Source: Pseudomicrostroma phylloplanum
Taxonomy: Eukaryota; Basidiomycota; Exobasidiomycetes; Microstromatales
NCBI GenBank assembly: GCA_039545275.1
Contig: BCHS01000007.1
Span: forward strand, 310,001 to 374,000
DNA: 64,000 nucleotides
Direction: 5' to 3'
A program made the position numbers and the translations under genes. The notes below the pieces were generated by a model that was given only the letters and a program-made list of their open reading frames with translations, was not told the DNA's origin and ran no database searches. How positions within the stretch are numbered: position 1 is the stretch's first letter; each line of letters starts with the position of its first letter. Positions 6,600-60,553 of this stretch are shown one piece after another.

Positions 6600-9297
6600 C
6601 ACAAGTTGCTCTCCACGCCTGAGACAAGCCTGCTCTTCCCGCTGTCCTTTTGCTTGCTGTGCACCTGTGCATATTATTTCGGATATGCCGAGTGGGGCTA
6701 AAGTGCATTATGTTGGGGTGCAGGGTTGCTGCTTCTGTCAGGGCTAGCGTGCGGAGGTCAACAGCAGCCCGACTTCATCCGAAGGAGTTATGCTCGAGAG
6801 CAGAGGAAGCTCGGGCCTCCTTTGCCTACCGCACTTAGGTGCGCCGTGAGTATCGCCAGCGCGAGAGCGGTTGACTGCAGTGGGGAAGGCGCTGTTACCG
6901 AAGGGGACTGCTGCATAGGGCAAAGAGCCCTGAAACCCAAAAAGGGCGTCGAGGCGTTGGTTGGCACAAAGCAGCAGCTTGCGGACGCTGCAGGACGCCC
7001 CCGTATGTGCGGGGCCCCCGTTCAGATCGTTCCTGGGGAAGTGCGGGTGGCGCCGGTGCCAAGCAAAAAGCGGAGCCCGAGATCTTCCATCCGTCCGAGG
7101 CAGTAGCGCGGCGACCTCCCCAAGACGCAAGACAGCAGCAGCTTTTCGCATCGCTTGCGCCACGCCATACACCCCAGGATTAGCCCTGCGAGTCTTGGCA
7201 AATCATAATTCGTACACAGCTACCCGAAAGCTACCCGTTGCCTTTCGGAAAACTGCCGCCCTGCCATAGGAGGGCGGCCGTCCCGTCTGCACCGGCAAAT
7301 GCTAGTGCCAAGCCTCCTAGCTTCCGTCGAAGCGTGGCGTAGCAATCGGGGTGAGGGTGGCTCTGAAGTGTTCAGGGCGAGACTGCGCGGCGTTGTGCGC
7401 AGGCATCATGCATACGATCGCGGAGGTTCGGTATAACTCAGGCAGACCGGACCGTCAGGGAGCTGAGGCTTGTTGCCTTCTTGACATACAGAAACAAAGT
7501 TCGGGCAGCGGAAACATCTGACCATGAGAAGGGAATGCATCCGAATTCTCCCGGTCCGTAAGCTACCCCAGGTTAAAGCACGGGCTGTGCCCAAGTCCTA
7601 CATTCATCTGAAGTTGGGACAGTCCTCCCGTGCACAACTCGGGTACCGCACACCCGTCAGCAAGTCTGGGTCGGCAGCAACCGGAAATGGCTGTCAGCCA
7701 AACGAGGTTCCCCGCTCCAGCGCCTCTTTCTCCGATGAGAGGAACCGGACGGGAACGAGAGCAAGTTCGGGTCGAAAGCTATGTCAGCATGTTGCCCTGA
7801 GGCTTTGGTTTTTAAAGGACACAGTCCCCAAGCTGAAGGGCCTCAAGCAGGTGGCCGCGACATGATCAGGCAATTCTGCCAAAGGGCGGGAATTCTAGGC
7901 TCTGTTGCGCATTATTGGCGGCTTTTGCTCAGCTGCGTTCGAAGCGACCTACAGGTTTATCCCAACAATTGTTTCCGCGATGCTCGTGAGACGGGGACCG
8001 CCTCTCGATTGCTGTCCAGGGGCAAGGCGGGCACCCTATGCTCATATGAAAGGGTCTGGGTGGGGGGCGGGGGGATTCCATCGTCATACATACTCACAGG
8101 GATTGGCATGAGAAAAGCCAGGTGGGTCTGAGCCAAGTGCCGGCGCCGCTAGACCTGTCTACGTTGCAGAGTCTGCTCCAATAGACGATCGCGACAGATG
8201 TATCACATCAAAGGCAGTCACCGCCCCGAGCTCAACCTTCGCGATGTGACCTTCGCTAGCCTTCTCCTTCTGCCATGATATCCCTGGATGAGCGGACTGT
8301 CTAGCCCAGGTGCGTGTTTGTCTTTGACATTGCAGTGCGACGGACAGGGCACACATTGAGGCTCTGTGGCAGGACAGGTACCCTACTGTCCCTCTGATAC
8401 TAATTCTGCGTCTCTCAGATAAGACAACGTACATTGGGCCTTGTGTCGTATCAACATCACTGTCGACAAGTCTGCAGGTATTGACTGGACTGCTGAGCAC
8501 CGCACTTACTCGATGTATAAAACGGCACCAAGTCATCGCCATTGTGCACAAATCCTCGGTATTGCTAAGCTGACGCAGAGTCCCGCACGATGGGAATGAG
8601 GTGGTATTGAGTAACCGGCTCGCTCATGCGGCATGCTCTTTTGCGAGACATAGGCTCTTGCCAACACTCTCATCGCTTCCCCTGAATCCGACACCCAGAT
8701 CAGAGACACTGTCATCAGCCTACCGACCGCACTCAGGGGTTCCCTAGCAGGATCTTCCCGCCTGACCACGTGCCAAGGCTTCGACACCCAGGTTCTTAGA
8801 CGCTAAGACAGGCACAAGCAGAGACCAAGTGTCGAGAGTCTCAGGCTTTCAATGCTGGCGGCGATACTCAAGAGGGCAGCTGTGCGGCAAGTAGCGAGCC
8901 CGGCCAACGCTGGAATGGAGGTTGCAGCAATCTCACACGCCCATCTGTCCCCGCTTCAAATTAGTCTCGATATACGATACACCAAGCTTCTGCCAAGCTT
9001 CTACCCCATTCAGGAAAGTGCTGTGGACGATTGCGTGTCATGTCTTCAGGTGGACAACATAGACAGACACGGCGGAGACCTGAGATGCACAACGTAGAAG
9101 CTCAAGCGAACGATGGTCGATGGCACGACAAATGGTATGATAAGGGTATCTGGGTATCAAGGGTACAGTCCATGCCTGCATGTACTGGCTATTAACACTG
9201 CGCTCATCGCTCAGGCTGAAGGCAGACCTCTTTGGAAGGAAAGGAGGGAGTAGATCAGTAAAGGATCGCCTGAAGAACTGCTGAACATGCGGCAAAC
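6600..9297. other. intergenic sequence without recognisable gene
   Basis: About 2.7 kb between the transporter and the small secreted-protein gene. Open frames are short, mostly lack good starts, overlap on opposite strands and show no family features. I saw no tRNA, no clear repeat and no transposon ends. Confidence 0.6.
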
Positions 9298-9828
9298 TCA
9301 CACGTCTGACCAGTCGAGGGAAATCTGGGTAGTGGCATAGACCTGCGAGCTTGTCGCCGAGGTCCGTGTTGAGGTGGAAGTGACAATCGAGCTGGCCTTG
9401 TCGCTCGAGGTGGAAGTGACAATCGAGCTGGCCTTGTCGCTCGAGGTGGAAGTGGTTGTCTTGGCCTTACTGCTGGGAACTTGCACAGTCGTCTTGGCAG
9501 TCGTGCTGGCAGACTTGGCTGAACTCTTGGAGGTCCCAGCGACTGTGCGGCCGGGATGACTCTGGGGGCTGGCCTTGGTAATTGGTAGAGGAATCCTGGG
9601 AGATGGGGTCTTCTTGGCCTTGGTGCTAGCACGGTTGTGGCTACTGGAAACCTCCTTCTTGTGGGAGTGCTTCCTCTGCTCGAGCTGCTCAAAGGTGTAT
9701 ACATCTCGAACTCCCGGCACAGATCCCGATGCAGGCTGCAGTTCGATGGCGGACATGCCGATTGGCGCAGCACTGACGGCGGCTGCCAGAAGGAGCGAAA
9801 CGATGACTGAGATGTGAAGGTACTGCAT
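9298..9828 (-). CDS. small secreted Ser/Thr/Lys-rich protein
   Basis: A single-exon frame of 176 residues. The first about 20 residues form a typical signal peptide (hydrophobic stretch ending Ala-Val-Ser-Ala-Ala). The mature part is rich in Ser, Thr and Lys and lacks cysteines. It contains two identical 12-residue repeats (STSSDKASSIVT) from a 36-bp tandem duplication and ends in YATTQISLDWSDV. Such sequences are typical of O-mannosylated wall or secreted proteins; no specific function is recognised. A TATA box lies about 125 bp upstream. A GTGAGT donor overlaps the stop, so a spliced C-terminal extension downstream cannot be excluded. Confidence 0.6.
   Translation of the reverse strand: MQYLHISVIVSLLLAAAVSAAPIGMSAIELQPASGSVPGVRDVYTFEQLEQRKHSHKKEVSSSHNRASTKAKKTPSPRIPLPITKASPQSHPGRTVAGTSKSSAKSASTTAKTTVQVPSSKAKTTTSTSSDKASSIVTSTSSDKASSIVTSTSTRTSATSSQVYATTQISLDWSDV
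9371..9442. repeat. 36-bp tandem duplication inside the secreted-protein gene
   Basis: Positions 9371-9406 and 9407-9442 are identical and in frame, giving two copies of a 12-residue Ser/Thr-rich unit. A third partial copy (GAGGTGGAAGTG) follows from 9443. Confidence 0.85.
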
Positions 9829-9948
9829 AATGAAGTGTGCGAGGGCGAGGGCGGGTACAATTGGTGATGATTTGGCGAGGAGAAGGGAGTAAAGAGGAGC
9901 TGTGTAAAGTATAGAGATTGATGTTTGAGTCGCATGCCAACGGGATAG

Positions 9949-9956
9949 CATATATA
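9949..9956 (-). promoter_or_regulatory. TATA box of the secreted-protein gene
   Basis: TATATATG-type sequence (plus strand GCATATATAGG) sits about 125 bp upstream of the start codon at 9828, the only such box in this intergenic region. Confidence 0.5.
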
Positions 9957-9961
9957 GGCAT

Positions 9962-10971
9962 TCGCAGCCTCTCAACCTCGCTAGGGTTGCTATTTGTTTG
10001 TGTAGCCGAGGCACAGGCCGTGTCTCACTCCCCGAAACATCGCTGGTGTTTCATGAAGTTCTTGACGTGTTTGACAGTCTTGACATGTCGGAAGCATTGT
10101 GTGCCGCCTGCTGCTCGTTGTTGGAGTTGCTCCTGTCTCAAAGCCGGGCGCGAGCAGGTGGATGTCTTAGGCGTGTCTCAGCGCGTACCGCCTCGTCGGC
10201 AACACTGCAGGATGCTTTTGTGCGCCGAGCAGCGACGAGATGCAGGAGCGGAGAATTTTCGTCATGCGCGGGTGCGGTCGATGTCAGACCTCAACAAACG
10301 TTAGGTCTCAGAGAGGCGGGCGGAGGTGGCACTTGCCGGTGGGCTGGGTGTAGTAGCATAGTCTTCGAGTTGTCAATGATGATTTGTGCCGGCGGAGCTG
10401 CCCTCGCGGTTGCAGCTGCTTGTCCAGAGACATACAGCAGATCACGGCGCAGTACGGGCGCTCGGAGCAACGACGGTGAAAGGATGTGGAGTAGGGTCCC
10501 GGTCGAAGAGCTGTCTGGGCGAGAAGATTGCCTCGTATGTCGATGGCGGTGGCATGAGCATCGTCAGAGGTTCGGCACCTCGGCACATTACTGTCTACCA
10601 TGGAAGCCTTGGCTGACGTCGAGGAGCGACAGAATTGCTGCCATCGGAAGGGAAGCCTGCCTGATCTCACTCAAGCACACGCGTGCGGGTGGCTGCCATG
10701 GCGCGCGCCGGCTGAGGCGAGACCAAGGCGGCCGAGCCACACGCTCGTTCACGGCCTGTAAGAGTCGTGGCCGCCCTTTCCGCATCCTCGTCGGCAATTC
10801 CATCTCCCCCACCTTCTCGCAAAGGTTTCCTTCCTCCTCGTTGCTTTGAGGCAATCTCGGCTAAACTCTTGCCTTGCACAGGCTTCTTGTACAGGCATAT
10901 TTACGCTTCGTTGTGGTTCAAGTTGATCGAATCGTGAAGTCCGGTGGCTTGTAACGGCAGCGACAGCAATC
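9962..10971. other. intergenic region, no supported gene
   Basis: About 1 kb upstream of both the secreted-protein gene (minus) and the DUF2408 gene (plus). A 283-codon open frame exists on the plus strand, but it lacks an ATG at its start and has the composition of non-coding GC-rich sequence. Confidence 0.5.
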
Positions 10972-54767: not shown

Positions 54768-57700
54768 ATGAAGCTCAGCGTCAGCATCGTCTTCCTTGCA
54801 CTGGTCCTGGGTGGTGAGGCTGCGGTGGGCCTTCCCGTCGGCTCGAACGAGTCCTCAGGAGGTCAGATCGACAATCGCAACCAGACTGAAAGCTCTGAGC
54901 AAGCACAAGGTCGCACTTATGAAGACCAGCCAGCTGCTGGTGCCCTCGTCGCCCGAGGAAGGTCTGGACGTAGCTTCGTGCTTGGCAGAAATGCTGGTGG
55001 ACAAGTGACTTTCGACAGCACACTGGAGTCTCGAGAAGTAAGTGAGGTGTTCTGTCGGTGATGCCAGTGCCATCAAAAATCCCGGAATTGACTTACCTTC
55101 GTCTGCATTCATGTTCATTAGCCTCGCCCAATGCCTCAAGGACGTTTCAATATGCGTAAGTTTGTTCATCGATTCAAATGGCCGGATCGTAAAAAGCACA
55201 AACACACGGATGGGTCGTACCATCGTGTCGCTGAGCCATACCATGAGTTTGCTGGCTGGGTGTTCGATGCCACGGGAGGTGGAATAGCTGGTAGTTTCGT
55301 CAATGCCGCTCTTGCCGATAAGCCGATGCCGGGCACACAGGCACCACCTAATTCGCCAGCTCGTCCGCCTGCCAAGCCCGCTGGGGCCAAAGCAGTGACT
55401 GAGCCTGTCAAACCAGCACCACCAGCTGCCAAGCCAACACCTCAGACTGTGAAGCCAGCACCTGATCACCCAGCTCCAAATCGGAGATCCAGCCTAGCTG
55501 ATGATGAGTCGTTGGGGGATTCTTCCGATGAGCACCGGGGCAGTCATGATAAGGGAGGAGAGGCGGATAGCAGGCGTGAACCTCATGGTCGAGGGAAAGG
55601 CGTCGATGATGGTGAGTCATTCACTTGAGACACATGCTGACGTTGTACCTCTCCTTTTCTTTGTGTTCCTCTCGCTCACTCTTGCAATTTGCTTCACTCG
55701 ACACAACGCACTCAGCACAAGAGCTCGATCGCCGAACGCCCACGCCTGGCGCGGGACGCACTGCAAAGAGCTTAGGTTTCAGCGTGATGGCTGGAGCCTT
55801 CGGCTCTTTCGTCAATGCCGCATCGCAGAAGATTTCGATGGGTCTCAAGGCCACTCCCTATCGCAAGCGCAGTTTCGAAGAAGACGAAGAGGACCTCTCT
55901 GGTCGAGGCTCAACGGCTCTCTACGACAAATTTACTAGGAAGCTGGTGAGTTGAGAAGGAGGAGAAAGTCGCCGAGGAGTAGTTTCTGACAATACCCTCC
56001 CTCTCGACTGAACATCACCACTCGTGGTGAGTTTGATAAACTCACTTGGAATGTCATCCATGGCTCCATCATCAAACAGGGTACCCGCAAAGCCAAGATC
56101 ATGATGGGCAAAGACCCCGGCGGTGACATAGTGGTGCACCGCTCCATCGCGGACCAGGCCGATGACCAGGCTGATGACGCGATCAAAGCTCGAGCTGCTG
56201 CATCCGGTGCTGGTGGAGCAATTGCAGACGCAATCTCGAAGTCCACGCTCATAGATGGCTTTAAGAAAACGCTCGTGAGTGATGCTTGGGATCTGACGCA
56301 GACTTCACCGGGATCGCTGATCAAAAGCTCTTCCTTCCCGCTCTTACTTTCCTCTTTGGTGCGTCAAACCTTGCGCGAAGGAGCCACGTCAATCATCCGA
56401 GGCTCCACAGATGCAAAGGCTCGTCACCGGTATCATCCGCGGGCCCATGACCGGTCAAGGAACGTCATATCTCATGCAGAAGATGGGCAAGGTTCCGTTC
56501 GGCAAGAGAGACCTCACATCATCTGACGAGGACGAGGCCTCTGTCGATCGCCGTGGATCTGACGCCTTGTTCCGCAAGTTCCAAAAGAAGCTCGTGAGTC
56601 ACAATAGCCCTCGGGCCACCAAGCTTGCATTTTTCACTGATCTCTTGGGCGTGAACCCCTTACAATTTCCTCTCTCTCCCACTGCCCCTAGGAACGCCGA
56701 GAGCAGGTGGACAAGCTCGTCTGGAACGGCATCAGCGGCGCTCTCAACAAGCAGGGCACCATGTGGGCGGAAAGGAAGATGGGCAAAGACCATACGGCGT
56801 TCGAGGGCGCGCCCCCAAAGTACATCTACCCTCGCGACCTTGTCACGGCTAATGACGAGGTCGAGGCTGCTGGCTACGTGGCTCGCGCAGGCACATACCC
56901 TGATGGATCTTCTGATCTTCTGGGCGACGTCGAGGTGCGCAACGCACCTGCTGCTGCCGCTCGGACTGATGCTGAAGATGTCGAAAGACCTCAAAAGCGA
57001 GCTGCTGAAACTACTGAACACTTGGCTGACCGTACTCCCGACAACTCTATCGCGGTTGAACGCGAAGACGAAGAAGACGACGACGAGTCTCTGGCACGAC
57101 GAGACTTCGACGACCTCGATGCCTCTGCAGCTTCCGTGAAGGAGCGAGAGGAGCCCAACGTCGACAGTGCCCAAGAATCCCTCGAAGCTCGCGCCTTCCG
57201 CAACCCCTTCACCGGCCAATACTACGGCTCCAGTGGCTTCGGCAGCGACAAGAGCAAAACCTCTCCTCCGACGTCGCCCCCTCATGCAGGGTCTTCCTCT
57301 CGCTCCAAGTCTCCCGCTCGTCCGAGATCACCACCCCGTGCAAAGTCCCCAACGCGTAGTAAGTCCCCCGCTCGTGCATTGTCTCCACCTCGCTACGAAT
57401 CTGCACCTCCTTCTAGCGCTGAACGCCAGGCAGAACTCCGCGTTGCTAGGGCAGCTCAGGCAAACAGTGCTGCTAGTAATAAGGCATACGGAGCTTCAGC
57501 AAAGGACAAGCTAGCGCGTCGAGAGCAGGAGGACGACAATGACCACATCCTCACCCGCTCCATCATCGATGGTGAGACAGACCTTGAGATGGACGCTGTC
57601 GACAAACGTCTCAGTACCGGTTTTGCTCTGAAGGCTGCCTGGAAGCACGGTATGCCCATGGCAAAGAAGTACGTAATTCCTGCAGCCAAGAAGTTCGGAC

Positions 57701-58919
57701 CCAAGTATGCAACGATGGCCATGAAGCACGGTAAGCCCATGCTGGGCAAATTCGCAAAGAAGGCAGGGCCCAAGGCAAGCGTCTACGGAGCCCAGTTTGC
57801 CTCGAAGCTCGGACCTAAGGCGAGCATGTACGGAAGCAAAGTAGCAGCCAAGTTCGGACCTGCTGCCCAGAAATACGCTGGACCTGCGTTCACAAAGTAT
57901 GGAGGCAAGTTCGCTGACAAGTTTTCGACGTCTTGGGGAAAGAGCGTTGGGGCAAAATTCGGCATGCCTTTCCGCCGTGATCTCAGTGAAGATGCTGGAG
58001 GTCGATGGGTGAGTACTACTGCAGAGCCACAATGCTGAGCGTCGAAGAGATGTTGACATCTTCACTTCCCTTTTGATTGACGTATCACAGACCGACGAGA
58101 CCTCCATTGCTTCCCGTGCGCCCACTGAGCTGGAGGCAGCTGGTATCTACGTGAGTCCCTCTCCAATCTTGGTGTCTAGAGATGGCCTCTTCGAGGCTAG
58201 TAATGAGGACGAACTCCAGCAGCGAGGCACATTGTCTTCGGGCGCCTGGTGGCTTGCCAAGAAGACGATGCTCAACAACCCTGCAGGAATGGGAGCCAGA
58301 GGTGCATGGTGGCTCGGAAAGAAGGTGGTTGGCAGAGGCTCCTCGAAAGCCGCATCCAAAGGCTTGAAGAAGGGCGCAAAAAAGACCTCATGGTTCTGGC
58401 GCCGACAGGCTGCACCGCGCGCTGGCAGAGGGTCTGATGATGAGGTGAGCCGGAAATGAGCTGAAGTTATCAGAAGCTGTTACGACAAGTATCTGACCAT
58501 CCTCGTTTCCGCAGAACGACGGCAATGACGCTCCTCAACTTCCTCGTGAAGTCGATGACAGCATGCAAGACCCTCAGGCTCTGCTGGGTCGTGATGTAGA
58601 AGACACAAGGAGTTCCTGGTATCGAAGGGATGTCACAGGCGCTGCACCTCAGGTCCAGGATCAGGTGAGTAAGCGAGGCTTCTTCACATCATCCACAACA
58701 TGGGGAGGCAAAGCTCTGAGCAGCTTGAAGACGGTGTCGAAGAGGGTCCCTGCCAAGCTACCTCGCATGCCGAAGCTGCCGAAGATGTTTGGGCGTAAGT
58801 CCGACAAGTATGGCAAGTACGGGAAGCACGGTCGGCACGGCGACTATAGGTGGGGCAAGAACATGCATTACTACCGGAGGAATGCTGTCGAGCCGGTGTA
58901 TATGGTCTCCTCCGTATGA
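54768..58919 (+). CDS. secreted modular precursor with dibasic sites and highly cationic segments
   Basis: Eight exons: 54768-55037, 55122-55611, 55716-55945, 56032-56274, 56411-56593, 56692-58008, 58091-58444 and 58515-58919, about 1163 residues. A signal peptide (residues 1 to about 22) is clear. The mature part has many KR/RR sites (for example 304-305, 443-444, 777-778, 900-901). Exon pairs 3-4 and 5-6 are related: exons 3 and 5 end in RGSTALYDKFTRKL and RRGSDALFRKFQKKL, and exons 4 and 6 begin with FDKLTWN and VDKLVWN, then a shared MGKD. Residues 779-899 contain 23 Lys, one Asp and no Glu, built of GPKAS.YG-type repeats. Exon 7 has two GAWWL(A/G)KK units. It looks like a polyprotein releasing cationic amphipathic peptides; activity is unknown. 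The exon 4 acceptor (GAG at 56031) is non-canonical. Confidence 0.65.
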
Positions 58920-58970
58920 GATGCAACAACATGAGGTGGTAGTTGGTTCAATGCTGCTGATGTGATGCAG

Positions 58971-59366
58971 TGTGCCGTCGCGTGGCGTCTACTGGCTCGC
59001 AAGACTCCGCATGGCTTGGTATGGCTCTGGCTGACTTCGGTGCCTCTCGTTCGCTTGGTTCGCTGTGAGCTGCAGTCGTACATCTTCATGCGACAATCTG
59101 AGCCCAACCAACAGCACCAGAAGCCTCCGCCGTCACCAGAGCCGAAGCCACACCCTAAGCCCGAGCCAAAGCCAGACTCTAAGCCGCCTCCGCCCCAAAA
59201 GACCGCTTGGCAACAGACGGTGCGGTATGCCAAAGTTACCAAAGATGCGTTAGCAAATCTCGCAGGGTGTAACTTCATGGGGTCGTTCAATATATGGACG
59301 TACTGCAGACCCGTTGGGACCAAATTTGCAGCCCCGAGCTACGAGGCTGGGATGTGGCGTGTCTGA
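58971..59366 (+). CDS. probable further exons of the cationic precursor locus
   Basis: A GTATGA donor at 58914 would bypass the stop at 58917-58919 and splice in phase 0 to 58971-59018, then (57-nt intron) to 59076-59366. The encoded part is an aromatic/basic segment, a Pro-Lys repeat (PEPKPHPKPEPKPDSKP) and a Cys-containing tail ending in EAGMWRV. The Pro-Lys linker resembles the proline-rich linker in exon 2 of the precursor, which supports one locus. Whether this is an alternative C-terminus or constitutive cannot be told. Confidence 0.35.
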   Translation, partial: CAVAWRLLARKTPHGLVWLWLTSVPLVRLVRCELQSYIFMRQSEPNQQHQKPPPSPEPKPHPKPEPKPDSKPPPPQKTAWQQTVRYAKVTKDALANLAGCNFMGSFNIWTYCRPVGTKFAAPSYEAGMWRV

Positions 59367-59524
59367 GCTCGCACAAGAGGTCAGCAATGGTCGAGGTCGG
59401 CTAGTATTTCGCTCTTCAGTACGCAAGGCGTCTCTTTTCTCGTTGCGGACTGTCGCGGCACACTGTCATTGACGCTGGCAGCTGACCTTCTCGTCTCCCC
59501 CTCGCTTCTCACCCCCTCCTACAG

Positions 59525-60067
59525 AGTCAGCCCCTGGATCCTCAAAGTGCTCAGACGATCTCTTCTCTCTCCGACACCTTGAGAGCCGGTGCACTCAAGA
59601 CTCTCTCTGGTGAGGTCGCCTCCCAGTCGACGAAGCTACTGCAACAGGGCACAAGTGAGCAGGACGACAAGCAGCGGCTACTGGCGGCGGCGGCGAAGCT
59701 TGGCATCCACCCGACTGGCCTGCCGCAGAACCCCGATGCACAGCAGGATCTCAAGCAGCTGACTGACGCGATTCAGAAGTACGAGTCGCAGAGTCCGAGT
59801 GCTCAGCATGCCCTTGAAGAGTCGTTCCAGCCTGCCAATGCTACCACTGGAGCCCCTGGCGCACCTACAACTCCCTCTCCTCCCAAGCCAGGCGACCTCG
59901 CAAAGCTTGCTCAGTGCCTTGAGAACGTCATGGAGTGTTTCGCCTCGTACGTCAGAGCCTCGGCTCATCGACCTCTCCCTGGCGACGAGGAGGTACTGCG
60001 CCTTCTCAGTCGTCGTGACGAGGAGCCTTCGGTGGCTGATCTCCTCCAGGCTCGTCGTGACGCAGAG
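59525..60067 (+). CDS. exon of the precursor locus or an adjoining gene
   Basis: A strong polypyrimidine tract and ACAG at 59524 start a 543-nt frame of 181 codons ending at a GTGAGC donor (60068). It encodes SQPLDPQSAQTISSLSDTL, an Ala/Gln-rich helical part, a Pro-rich linker, LAKLAQCLENVMECFASYV (two Cys) and EVLRLLSRRDEEPSVADLLQ. The RRD site resembles those in the precursor. The exon to which it is joined upstream is uncertain, because the preceding frame stops at 59366. Confidence 0.4.
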
Positions 60068-60280
60068 GTGAGCTGATTGAGCTTGAGACGTTTGTGGGTG
60101 GGCGAAGGGGACGATTTACCTCTCACACCCCTCTCTTCTCCCCACATCCACACACCCGCCTGTCCTGTCCTCTCATGTGTTTCTGAAAACATCAACGTCC
60201 ACCATCCCAACATCGAACAACGAACGTTCAACATCCAATATCCACCACCCAAGCTCGACCTCGACCCTCGTCTCCTCCCC

Positions 60281-60553
60281 ATGGCGGCCGTCGCAGGTGA
60301 AATGGGTCTCAAGTTCCTCGGCAAGAAGGTCGTCAAGCTAGGCGCCAAGAAGCTGGGCAAAGTCGTCTCGAAGCAGGCCGTCAAGTCGGTTGGGCGACCT
60401 GGGCCTAAAGGCGTGGTACGCAAGGTGGCGACGAAGGTGGTGAAGGAGCAGACGAAGGATTATGCGCAGGATCAGCTCAGTAAGGCCTTCCATGGGCTCT
60501 TTGGTCGAGATGTCCATCACACGGCGGCCGGTGGGGGAATCTACTGGAGGTAG
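60281..60553 (+). CDS. small Lys/Val/Gly-rich cationic frame, last exon or separate gene
   Basis: ATG 60281 (context CCCCATGG) opens 90 codons. The first 60 residues are strongly basic with regular KK/hydrophobic alternation (GLKFLGKKVVKLGAKKLGK), then an amphipathic DYAQDQLSKAFHGLFGRD and a Gly-rich end. The composition matches the cationic segments of the precursor directly upstream. It could be its terminal exon or a separate small protein. It lacks its own signal peptide, which favours the exon reading. Confidence 0.45.
   Translation: MAAVAGEMGLKFLGKKVVKLGAKKLGKVVSKQAVKSVGRPGPKGVVRKVATKVVKEQTKDYAQDQLSKAFHGLFGRDVHHTAAGGGIYWR

Follow-up and report, generated by a model that had tools for sequence, protein, structure and literature searches.

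A candidate Kex2-processed precursor of cationic amphipathic peptides encoded by Pseudomicrostroma phylloplanum

What is made from a long gene whose product has a signal-like start, dibasic sites and strongly cationic segments, and which resembles no catalogued family? This question is raised by a locus of the basidiomycete Pseudomicrostroma phylloplanum, which was analysed in a window of 64,000 nucleotides (bases 310001–374000 of contig C7, BCHS01000007.1) together with the genome (17.08 Mb, 20 contigs). On its forward strand the window carries an intact gene of nine exons (54768–59366) with a product of 1185 residues followed by a stop codon. On balance, and judging from sequence, we somewhat favour the reading that this product is a secreted, charge-balanced Kex2 polyprotein which releases cationic amphipathic peptides. 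An initial annotation of the locus had proposed an undescribed family of secreted precursors of the Kex2 type, and this is supported by the signal-like start, by the presence of LxxR motifs (leucine, any two residues, arginine), by switches of charge, by a kexin-like gene in the genome and by the lack of a family match.

The annotation had recognised no homologue, which is correct as far as families are concerned but not for orthologues, of which two were found. With Pfam there was no family up to E 1 for exons 1–8 of our first gene model, while exon 9 and the orthologue P0001 gave unrelated rows only, all of them well short of the curated cut-offs (best E 0.041). NCBIfam returned no match passing its threshold, with rows far below the cut-offs only, and PDB no match up to E 10. 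No Pfam or NCBIfam profile thus placed the protein in a known non-secreted family, the outcome that the annotation had set against its own proposal. The three protein searches scored the 7994–7995 candidates sharing most words, in a database of 5.8 billion proteins. Among the best 7995 the only named relative was P0001 (BCV69DRAFT_283252), a hypothetical protein of Microstroma glucosiphilum with 1015 residues that aligns to 68% of the first model at 73% identity. The second orthologue, P0002, is a metagenomic fragment of 426 residues corresponding to exon 6 only. Searches with two short patterns gave 75 matches in genome_contigs and 48 in viral_contigs, with no relative among them, and no account of this protein was found in the literature, as judged by titles and abstract openings. 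The secretome of P. glucosiphilum has been analysed, according to passages of PMC9816061. P0001 has the same order of segments as the window protein, and differs from it in an additional repeat stretch within the cationic segment, in an insert located in exon 8 ahead of the last RR, and in that its deposited model begins at a methionine inside exon 3, without exons 1 and 2.

A chain of exons was built from GT-AG sites and phase and then corrected against P0001, with which all junctions from exon 3 onwards agree, among them that at the GAG acceptor of exon 4 and that of exon 8 with 59076. As P0001 supports the junction 58664^59076, the end of the gene was placed at 59366 and not at 60553. The C-terminus of P0001 (EAGMWxV) coincides with the end of the window protein, and the frame at 60281, which the annotation had included in the gene with an end at 60553, does not belong to this transcript. 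Exon 5 begins 30 nucleotides earlier than in the first model, which shifts the residue numbers of later exons. Exons 1 and 2 were drawn from the window sequence alone, and the phases of exons 1–3 join without a stop.

Kex2-type processing of the precursor is quite likely, given the two types of candidate site along the chain. Dibasic KR/RR sites number 14 (4 KR, 10 RR) against 13.4 in shuffles, which is not above chance. Of the 77 control frames, which are long stretches without stops and not verified genes, 46 are equally rich in them or richer. The abundance of such sites, which had been used as an argument in the annotation, therefore carries no weight, but their placement does, as they sit where charge changes: the mean contrast between ten-residue flanks is 3.86, compared to 1.85 at random positions (a value as high arose in 1 of 5000 random sets), 2.08 at 63 lone arginines and 1.91 at 449 control sites. 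In the alignable part, 10 of 11 are conserved in P0001. The second type, LxxR, is an expanded Kex2 motif according to passages of PMC9816061 and PMC8528282; the test for it was not blind, the motif having been met in these papers and some of the sites having already been seen by eye. There are 13 such sites against 4.33 expected (2 of 5000 shuffles), four of them coinciding with RR, an excess reached by none of the 77 control frames, for which the pooled ratio was 0.99. With the dibasic ones removed, nine remain against 3.65 expected (41 of 5000). P0001 has 12 against 3.82 (0 of 5000 shuffles), or nine against 3.16 without dibasic ones (9 of 5000), and all ten alignable sites are kept in it, the other three lying upstream of its start. 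No enrichment was seen for L...R (two) or L....R (one). LxxR is better evidence for Kex2 processing than the number of dibasic sites. The chance-level KR/RR count would also suit a secreted and essentially uncut cationic matrix protein, sticking to wall glycans or surfaces through its Lys-rich and SPxR-rich regions, as would the joint conservation in P0001 of the long linkers, the SPxR region and the C-terminus. We regard such a protein as unlikely in view of the LxxR excess unmatched by controls, the switch of charge at KR/RR and the Arg-free core segment. One P-domain match was found in the genome, in a frame whose motifs we read as the layout of a kexin; a kexin-like gene is present.

The core segment is the most distinctive part of the protein. 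The annotation had described 121 residues with 23 Lys, one Asp and no Glu, and this composition is exact (K23 A22 G16 F10 P9 D1 E0 R0), with the segment now at residues 789–909 in place of 779–899. Controls consisted of 63930 windows of 121 residues from 593 other stop-free frames (264 kb, six frames); 903 of these windows contain at most one acidic residue, and none of the 903 has at least 15 Lys (maximum 11). In 5000 shuffles of the protein no window of this length with at most one acidic residue arose. A net charge of at least +22 taken alone occurs in 719 of the 63930 windows, so charge by itself is not unique and the unusual feature is the Lys-only, acid-free make-up. None of the 23 basic residues is Arg, although the whole protein has 93 Lys and 88 Arg (hypergeometric 4.9e-8), and the corresponding shares are 1/30 in P0001 and 0/24 in P0002. 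KR and RR are absent from the segment by definition; allowing for this, all of the 26781 random labellings (of 200000) that were without KR/RR had at least two Arg. The segment is flanked by DKR and RR in all three orthologues (window, P0001, P0002). At the helical angle it is amphipathic to a degree that none of 500 shuffles equals, and its 15-residue periodicity scores 0.59, where 200 shuffles give at most 0.19. Tandem Repeats Finder detected no array in it, and a repeat finder gave a 24-nucleotide pair at 88%. Since 11 of the 27 pairs of identical residues at lag 15 differ in codon, recent copying of DNA does not seem to be the origin of the repeats.

In-silico cutting at both site types gives further basic fragments, for example residues 261–305, 318–414, 415–454, 470–485, 650–759, 789–911 and 967–1026, several of which are separated by acidic fragments. 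Among alignable fragments, identity to P0001 amounts to 479 of 582 residues for those of net charge +4 or more and 213 of 314 for those of −2 or less (one net-0 fragment, 8 of 12 identical, was excluded from these sums), and charge correlates with identity over 36 non-overlapping 25-residue windows (Spearman 0.44, P 0.007). When dibasic cut-site residues are left out, the fragment charges sum to +5. The duplicated WWL(A/G)KK units reported by the annotation are real and conserved in P0001; the fragment carrying them (the WW segment), including its RR, is identical in 54 of 60 residues, and its amphipathicity is weaker than that of the large segment (18 of 500 shuffles as good). The fragment holding the SPxR region is not helix-like.

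Upstream of these pieces are three tandem modules, B, C and D, which resemble one another (B vs D, z 16.5, 0/1000 shuffles; C vs D, z 12.5, 0/1000; B vs C, z 5.1, 1/1000). Over 21 module pairs compared, five stood out (at most 2/1000 each), B vs exon 2 was weak (20/1000) and 15 were at chance. Each of the three modules is interrupted at the same place by a phase-0 intron, after FTRKL, FKKTL and FQKKL respectively, and introns 3, 4 and 5 (within 55946–56691) are themselves alike somewhat beyond shuffles (0, 10 and 1 of 300), a likeness that may in part reflect the GTGAGT with which all of them begin. Such a pattern points to the duplication, within the gene, of a unit of exon and intron, with the likeness of the introns a possible fossil of it. 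The modules, the LxxR sites and the absence of Arg from the large segment go beyond what had been annotated. Tandem modules are also a point in favour of a precursor of surface structures like the smut repellents, from which Kex2-freed amphipathic peptides would coat the wall or form fibrils and alter surface hydrophobicity or attachment; Rep1 and Hum3 are precursors of this kind, with amphipathic repeats and Kex2 sites, and Rep1 peptides occur at the hyphal surface (passages of PMC4617103). We consider a surface role somewhat unlikely here. Fragments between dibasic sites are mutually unlike, the largest similarity cluster being 1 (15 fragments of at least eight residues at KR/RR, 26 at any dibasic), exons 1–8 of the first model lack a Pfam match, and the strong Lys charge is in our judgement unlike a water-repellent coat. 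Pseudomicrostroma glucosiphilum grew only as a yeast under the conditions described in passages of PMC7766764, from which the window species may differ.

The protein is very probably secreted by means of its signal-like start. Its N-terminal 12-residue Kyte-Doolittle mean is 2.94, and an equally hydrophobic stretch so near the start was seen in 2 of 837 other open reading frames beginning with ATG (838 including this one, at least 60 residues, 264 kb), which bears out the signal peptide of the annotation as a signal-like start. The call is this hydrophobicity comparison with other frames; the definition of the KEP class of precursors discussed below uses SignalP. A non-secreted (for example nuclear) protein, with exons 1 and 2 mis-joined or taken from another gene, would agree with the lack of a signal peptide in the deposited model of P0001, with a composite query of exon 2 and a downstream open frame (exon 9', see below) that had no match up to E 10 among the 7994–7995 candidates scored, and with the SPxR repeats, which we take to recall histone-tail motifs. 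It is distinctly unlikely, given the fitting phases of exons 1–3, the GSFVNAA unit common to exon 2 and exon 3 (unit A; 2/1000 shuffles as good) and the hydrophobic start itself, which is preceded by a TATA box in a leader free of ATG. The nearest ATG upstream of the start codon is 380 bp distant, and gaps that long make up 56 of 7485 ATG-to-ATG gaps, this one included. In addition, the LxxR excess persists without exons 1 and 2 (11 against 3.43).

Returning to the secreted Kex2 polyprotein, its pathway may be pictured as follows. The protein would enter the endoplasmic reticulum through the predicted signal peptide, found in the window sequence only, and a kexin in the Golgi would then cut after KR/RR and after the Arg of LxxR, as suggested by the enrichment and conservation of LxxR, the charge borders and the kexin-like gene. 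Such cuts would release acidic spacers and cationic pieces, namely the 121-residue Lys-only segment of Gly/Pro/aromatic repeats, the 58-residue WW segment and smaller pieces of the modules. Until cleavage the spacers may offset the cationic charge, in keeping with the sum of +5 for the fragment charges. Once freed, the cationic peptides would most likely attach to the anionic membranes of microbes or to wall polymers and be directed against microbial competitors. This membrane-active or antimicrobial function is put forward tentatively, because of the charge, the amphipathic character of the large segment and the WW segment, and the analogy with Ece1p and with secreted fungal antimicrobial effectors. 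A precursor of effectors or toxins directed at the host of a plant-associated fungus would likewise fit the signal-like start, as well as the scarcity of relatives, the lesser conservation of the spacers and a Kex2 layout like that of class 1 in PMC8528282 (as passages of that paper present it). We hold it to be improbable, as nothing in these data points to a plant target and the nearest frames recognised by Pfam, out of nine examined, encode Pex19 and a protein kinase. Doubtful too, though attractive, is the wider notion of a new precursor architecture, in which a charge-balanced mosaic with two kexin site types, acidic masks and an Arg-free helical repeat polymer that cannot be cut internally would supply membrane-active weapons or armour to Microstroma-type fungi.

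Several observations weigh against the polyprotein reading, beginning with the chance-level number of KR/RR sites. Their conservation in P0001 is near the general level (identity is 89% for Arg and 86% for Lys), and the LxxR excess is weak in the fragment P0002 (5 against 1.8; 1 of 77 controls as high). The related patterns L.R (9 against 4.2, 21/1000) and I..R (6 against 2.1, 14/1000) are enriched as well. The whole pro-protein has a net charge of +33 before cutting, which makes the charge balance partial if the basic residues of the cut sites are counted, and fragment 486–585 joins an acidic tail to a conserved module, showing that the rule is imperfect. Modules B, C and D are not significantly amphipathic (109, 103 and 201 of 500 shuffles), nor are the stretches 261–303 and 388–411 (66 and 464 of 500). 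A simple peptide store leaves the conserved SPxR region and C-terminus unexplained. Exons 1 and 2, and hence the predicted signal peptide, lie outside both orthologues. Codon usage, uninformative as a coding test, gave no clear support for the frame.

Table 1. Positions in the window of the exons and other features of the gene.
Feature	Start	End	Strand	Remarks
TATA box (TATATA)	54415	54420	+	inside ATG-free stretch
Exon 1	54768	55037	+	start ATG at 54768; GTAAGT donor
Signal peptide (predicted), residues 1–19	54768	54824	+	cleavage point by eye
Exon 2	55122	55611	+	His/Lys/Arg-rich stretch, GSFVNAA unit, Pro/Ala/Lys-rich linker
Exon 3	55716	55945	+	chained model and P0001 alignment
Module B	55907	56115	+	interrupted by intron 3
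Exon 4	56032	56274	+	GAG acceptor; TRKL^FDKL junction agrees with P0001
Module C	56242	56491	+	interrupted by intron 4
Exon 5	56381	56593	+	start shifted upstream according to P0001 (EPRQSSE)
Module D	56555	56790	+	interrupted by intron 5
Exon 6	56692	58008	+	chained model; P0001 and P0002 alignment
SPxR-repeat region, residues 686–716	57301	57393	+	similar runs in P0001 and P0002
KR site directly before large segment	57604	57609	+	DKR in 3/3 orthologues
Large cationic Arg-free segment, residues 789–909	57610	57972	+	net +22; period of 15 residues; amphipathic at 100 degrees
RR site directly after large segment	57973	57978	+	3/3 orthologues
Exon 7	58091	58444	+	chained model and P0001 alignment
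LQQR, LxxR-type site before WW segment	58214	58225	+	LRQR in P0001
WW segment (GAWWLAKK...GAWWLGKKVV...SWFW), then RR	58226	58399	+	P0001 alignment
Exon 8	58515	58664	+	chained model and P0001 alignment
Exon 9	59076	59366	+	stop codon; Pro/Lys-rich linker, then conserved two-cysteine C-terminus

Ends of the gene at 58919, by read-through of intron 8, and at 60553 were ruled out for the main transcript by the P0001 junction; as isoforms they are possible. Intron 8 (58665–58916, +) is open at its start and encodes a peptide rich in Lys, Arg, Tyr and Gly with KR sites, and its retention would lead to a stop at 58919. This reading contains no LxxR and has no clear match in P0001 (86 of 300 shuffles as good). 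Further downstream, 59525–60067 (exon 9') and 60254–60550 (exon 10'), both on the + strand, are open frames in phase with the donor of exon 8. Splicing from the donor at 58665 keeps the phase with either 59076 or 59525. The two frames may thus be exons of an alternative 3' end, or they may form a second gene of this type. Exon 9' was rejected as a homologue of exon 9 (686 of 1000 shuffles as good), and its likeness to P0001 (0 of 300 shuffles), though it may be genuine, was not accepted, being a gapped match through low-complexity stretches (tblastn E 0.075). Exon 10' resembles exons 7–8 in the motifs GKKVV, KLGAKK and L(L/F)GRDV (LFGRDV in exon 10'; 4 of 500 shuffles as good), and its comparison with the WW segment was one of those that stood out (at most 2/1000 shuffles). 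Joined, exons 9' and 10' contain five LxxR against 1.66 expected (53 of 3000 shuffles).

In searches of the whole genome all strong matches fell at this locus, and neither a second copy nor a convincing paralogue was seen elsewhere. Weak matches occurred on contig C6 (E 0.063 and E 1.88), and a candidate paralogue on contig C2 (E 0.058) was rejected, its frame being read as a cation-transporting ATPase. Within the window, another frame with a signal-like stretch (MQYLHISVIVSLLLAAAVSAAP), an LEQR and a basic Ser/Thr-rich tail is located at 9301–10050 (−); it has no Pfam match.

Among known systems, KEPs share with the window protein a signal-like start and many candidate Kex2 sites. KEPs are defined by at least three similar repeats between Kex2 sites (passages of PMC6339444 and PMC7329392), whereas the largest cluster of 1 found here, in a simplified version of the published tests, shows no such repeats. 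As these two surveys require repeated units, according to the same passages, precursors of this kind could be missed, because the present gene fails the simplified repeat test yet has a conserved kexin-type signature. A simple screen for them combines the LxxR excess over shuffles, checked against control frames, with the switch of charge at the sites; if the pieces are active, this little-studied group of basidiomycetes would become a new source of cationic peptides. The K2PP effectors resemble the window protein in the candidate use of LxxR besides KR and RR, and differ in having a single N-terminal pro-domain ended by KR, RR or LxxR, as passages of PMC8528282 describe, where the window protein has sites along the whole chain. 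UstYa (DUF3328), a partner of cyclised ribosomally synthesized and post-translationally modified peptides, had no match in the genome nor in any control genome and is thus uninformative.

Rep1 and Hum3 of Ustilago maydis, which belongs to the same subphylum, have imperfect amphipathic repeats in precursors with Kex2 sites. The window protein lacks the series of 12–17 repeats bounded by Kex2 sites described for them in passages of PMC4617103, and its main piece is Lys-rich and Arg-free. Its cutting yields no separate similar fragments, and its single modules are not significantly amphipathic. The hydrophobin domain, a feature of Hum3, had no Pfam match in exons 1–8 of the first model, exon 9 or P0001. 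Ece1p, the candidalysin precursor of Candida albicans, has 271 residues and seven KR sites (passages of PMC12153327). In contrast, the window protein has 1185 residues, with KR, RR and LxxR sites mixed, a predicted 121-residue product and acidic spacers. Compared by layout, with no claim to shared ancestry, the two proteins are nevertheless alike in having a signal (predicted here), unlike peptides between kexin sites (candidate sites here) and an amphipathic helical product (likewise predicted here; same passages).

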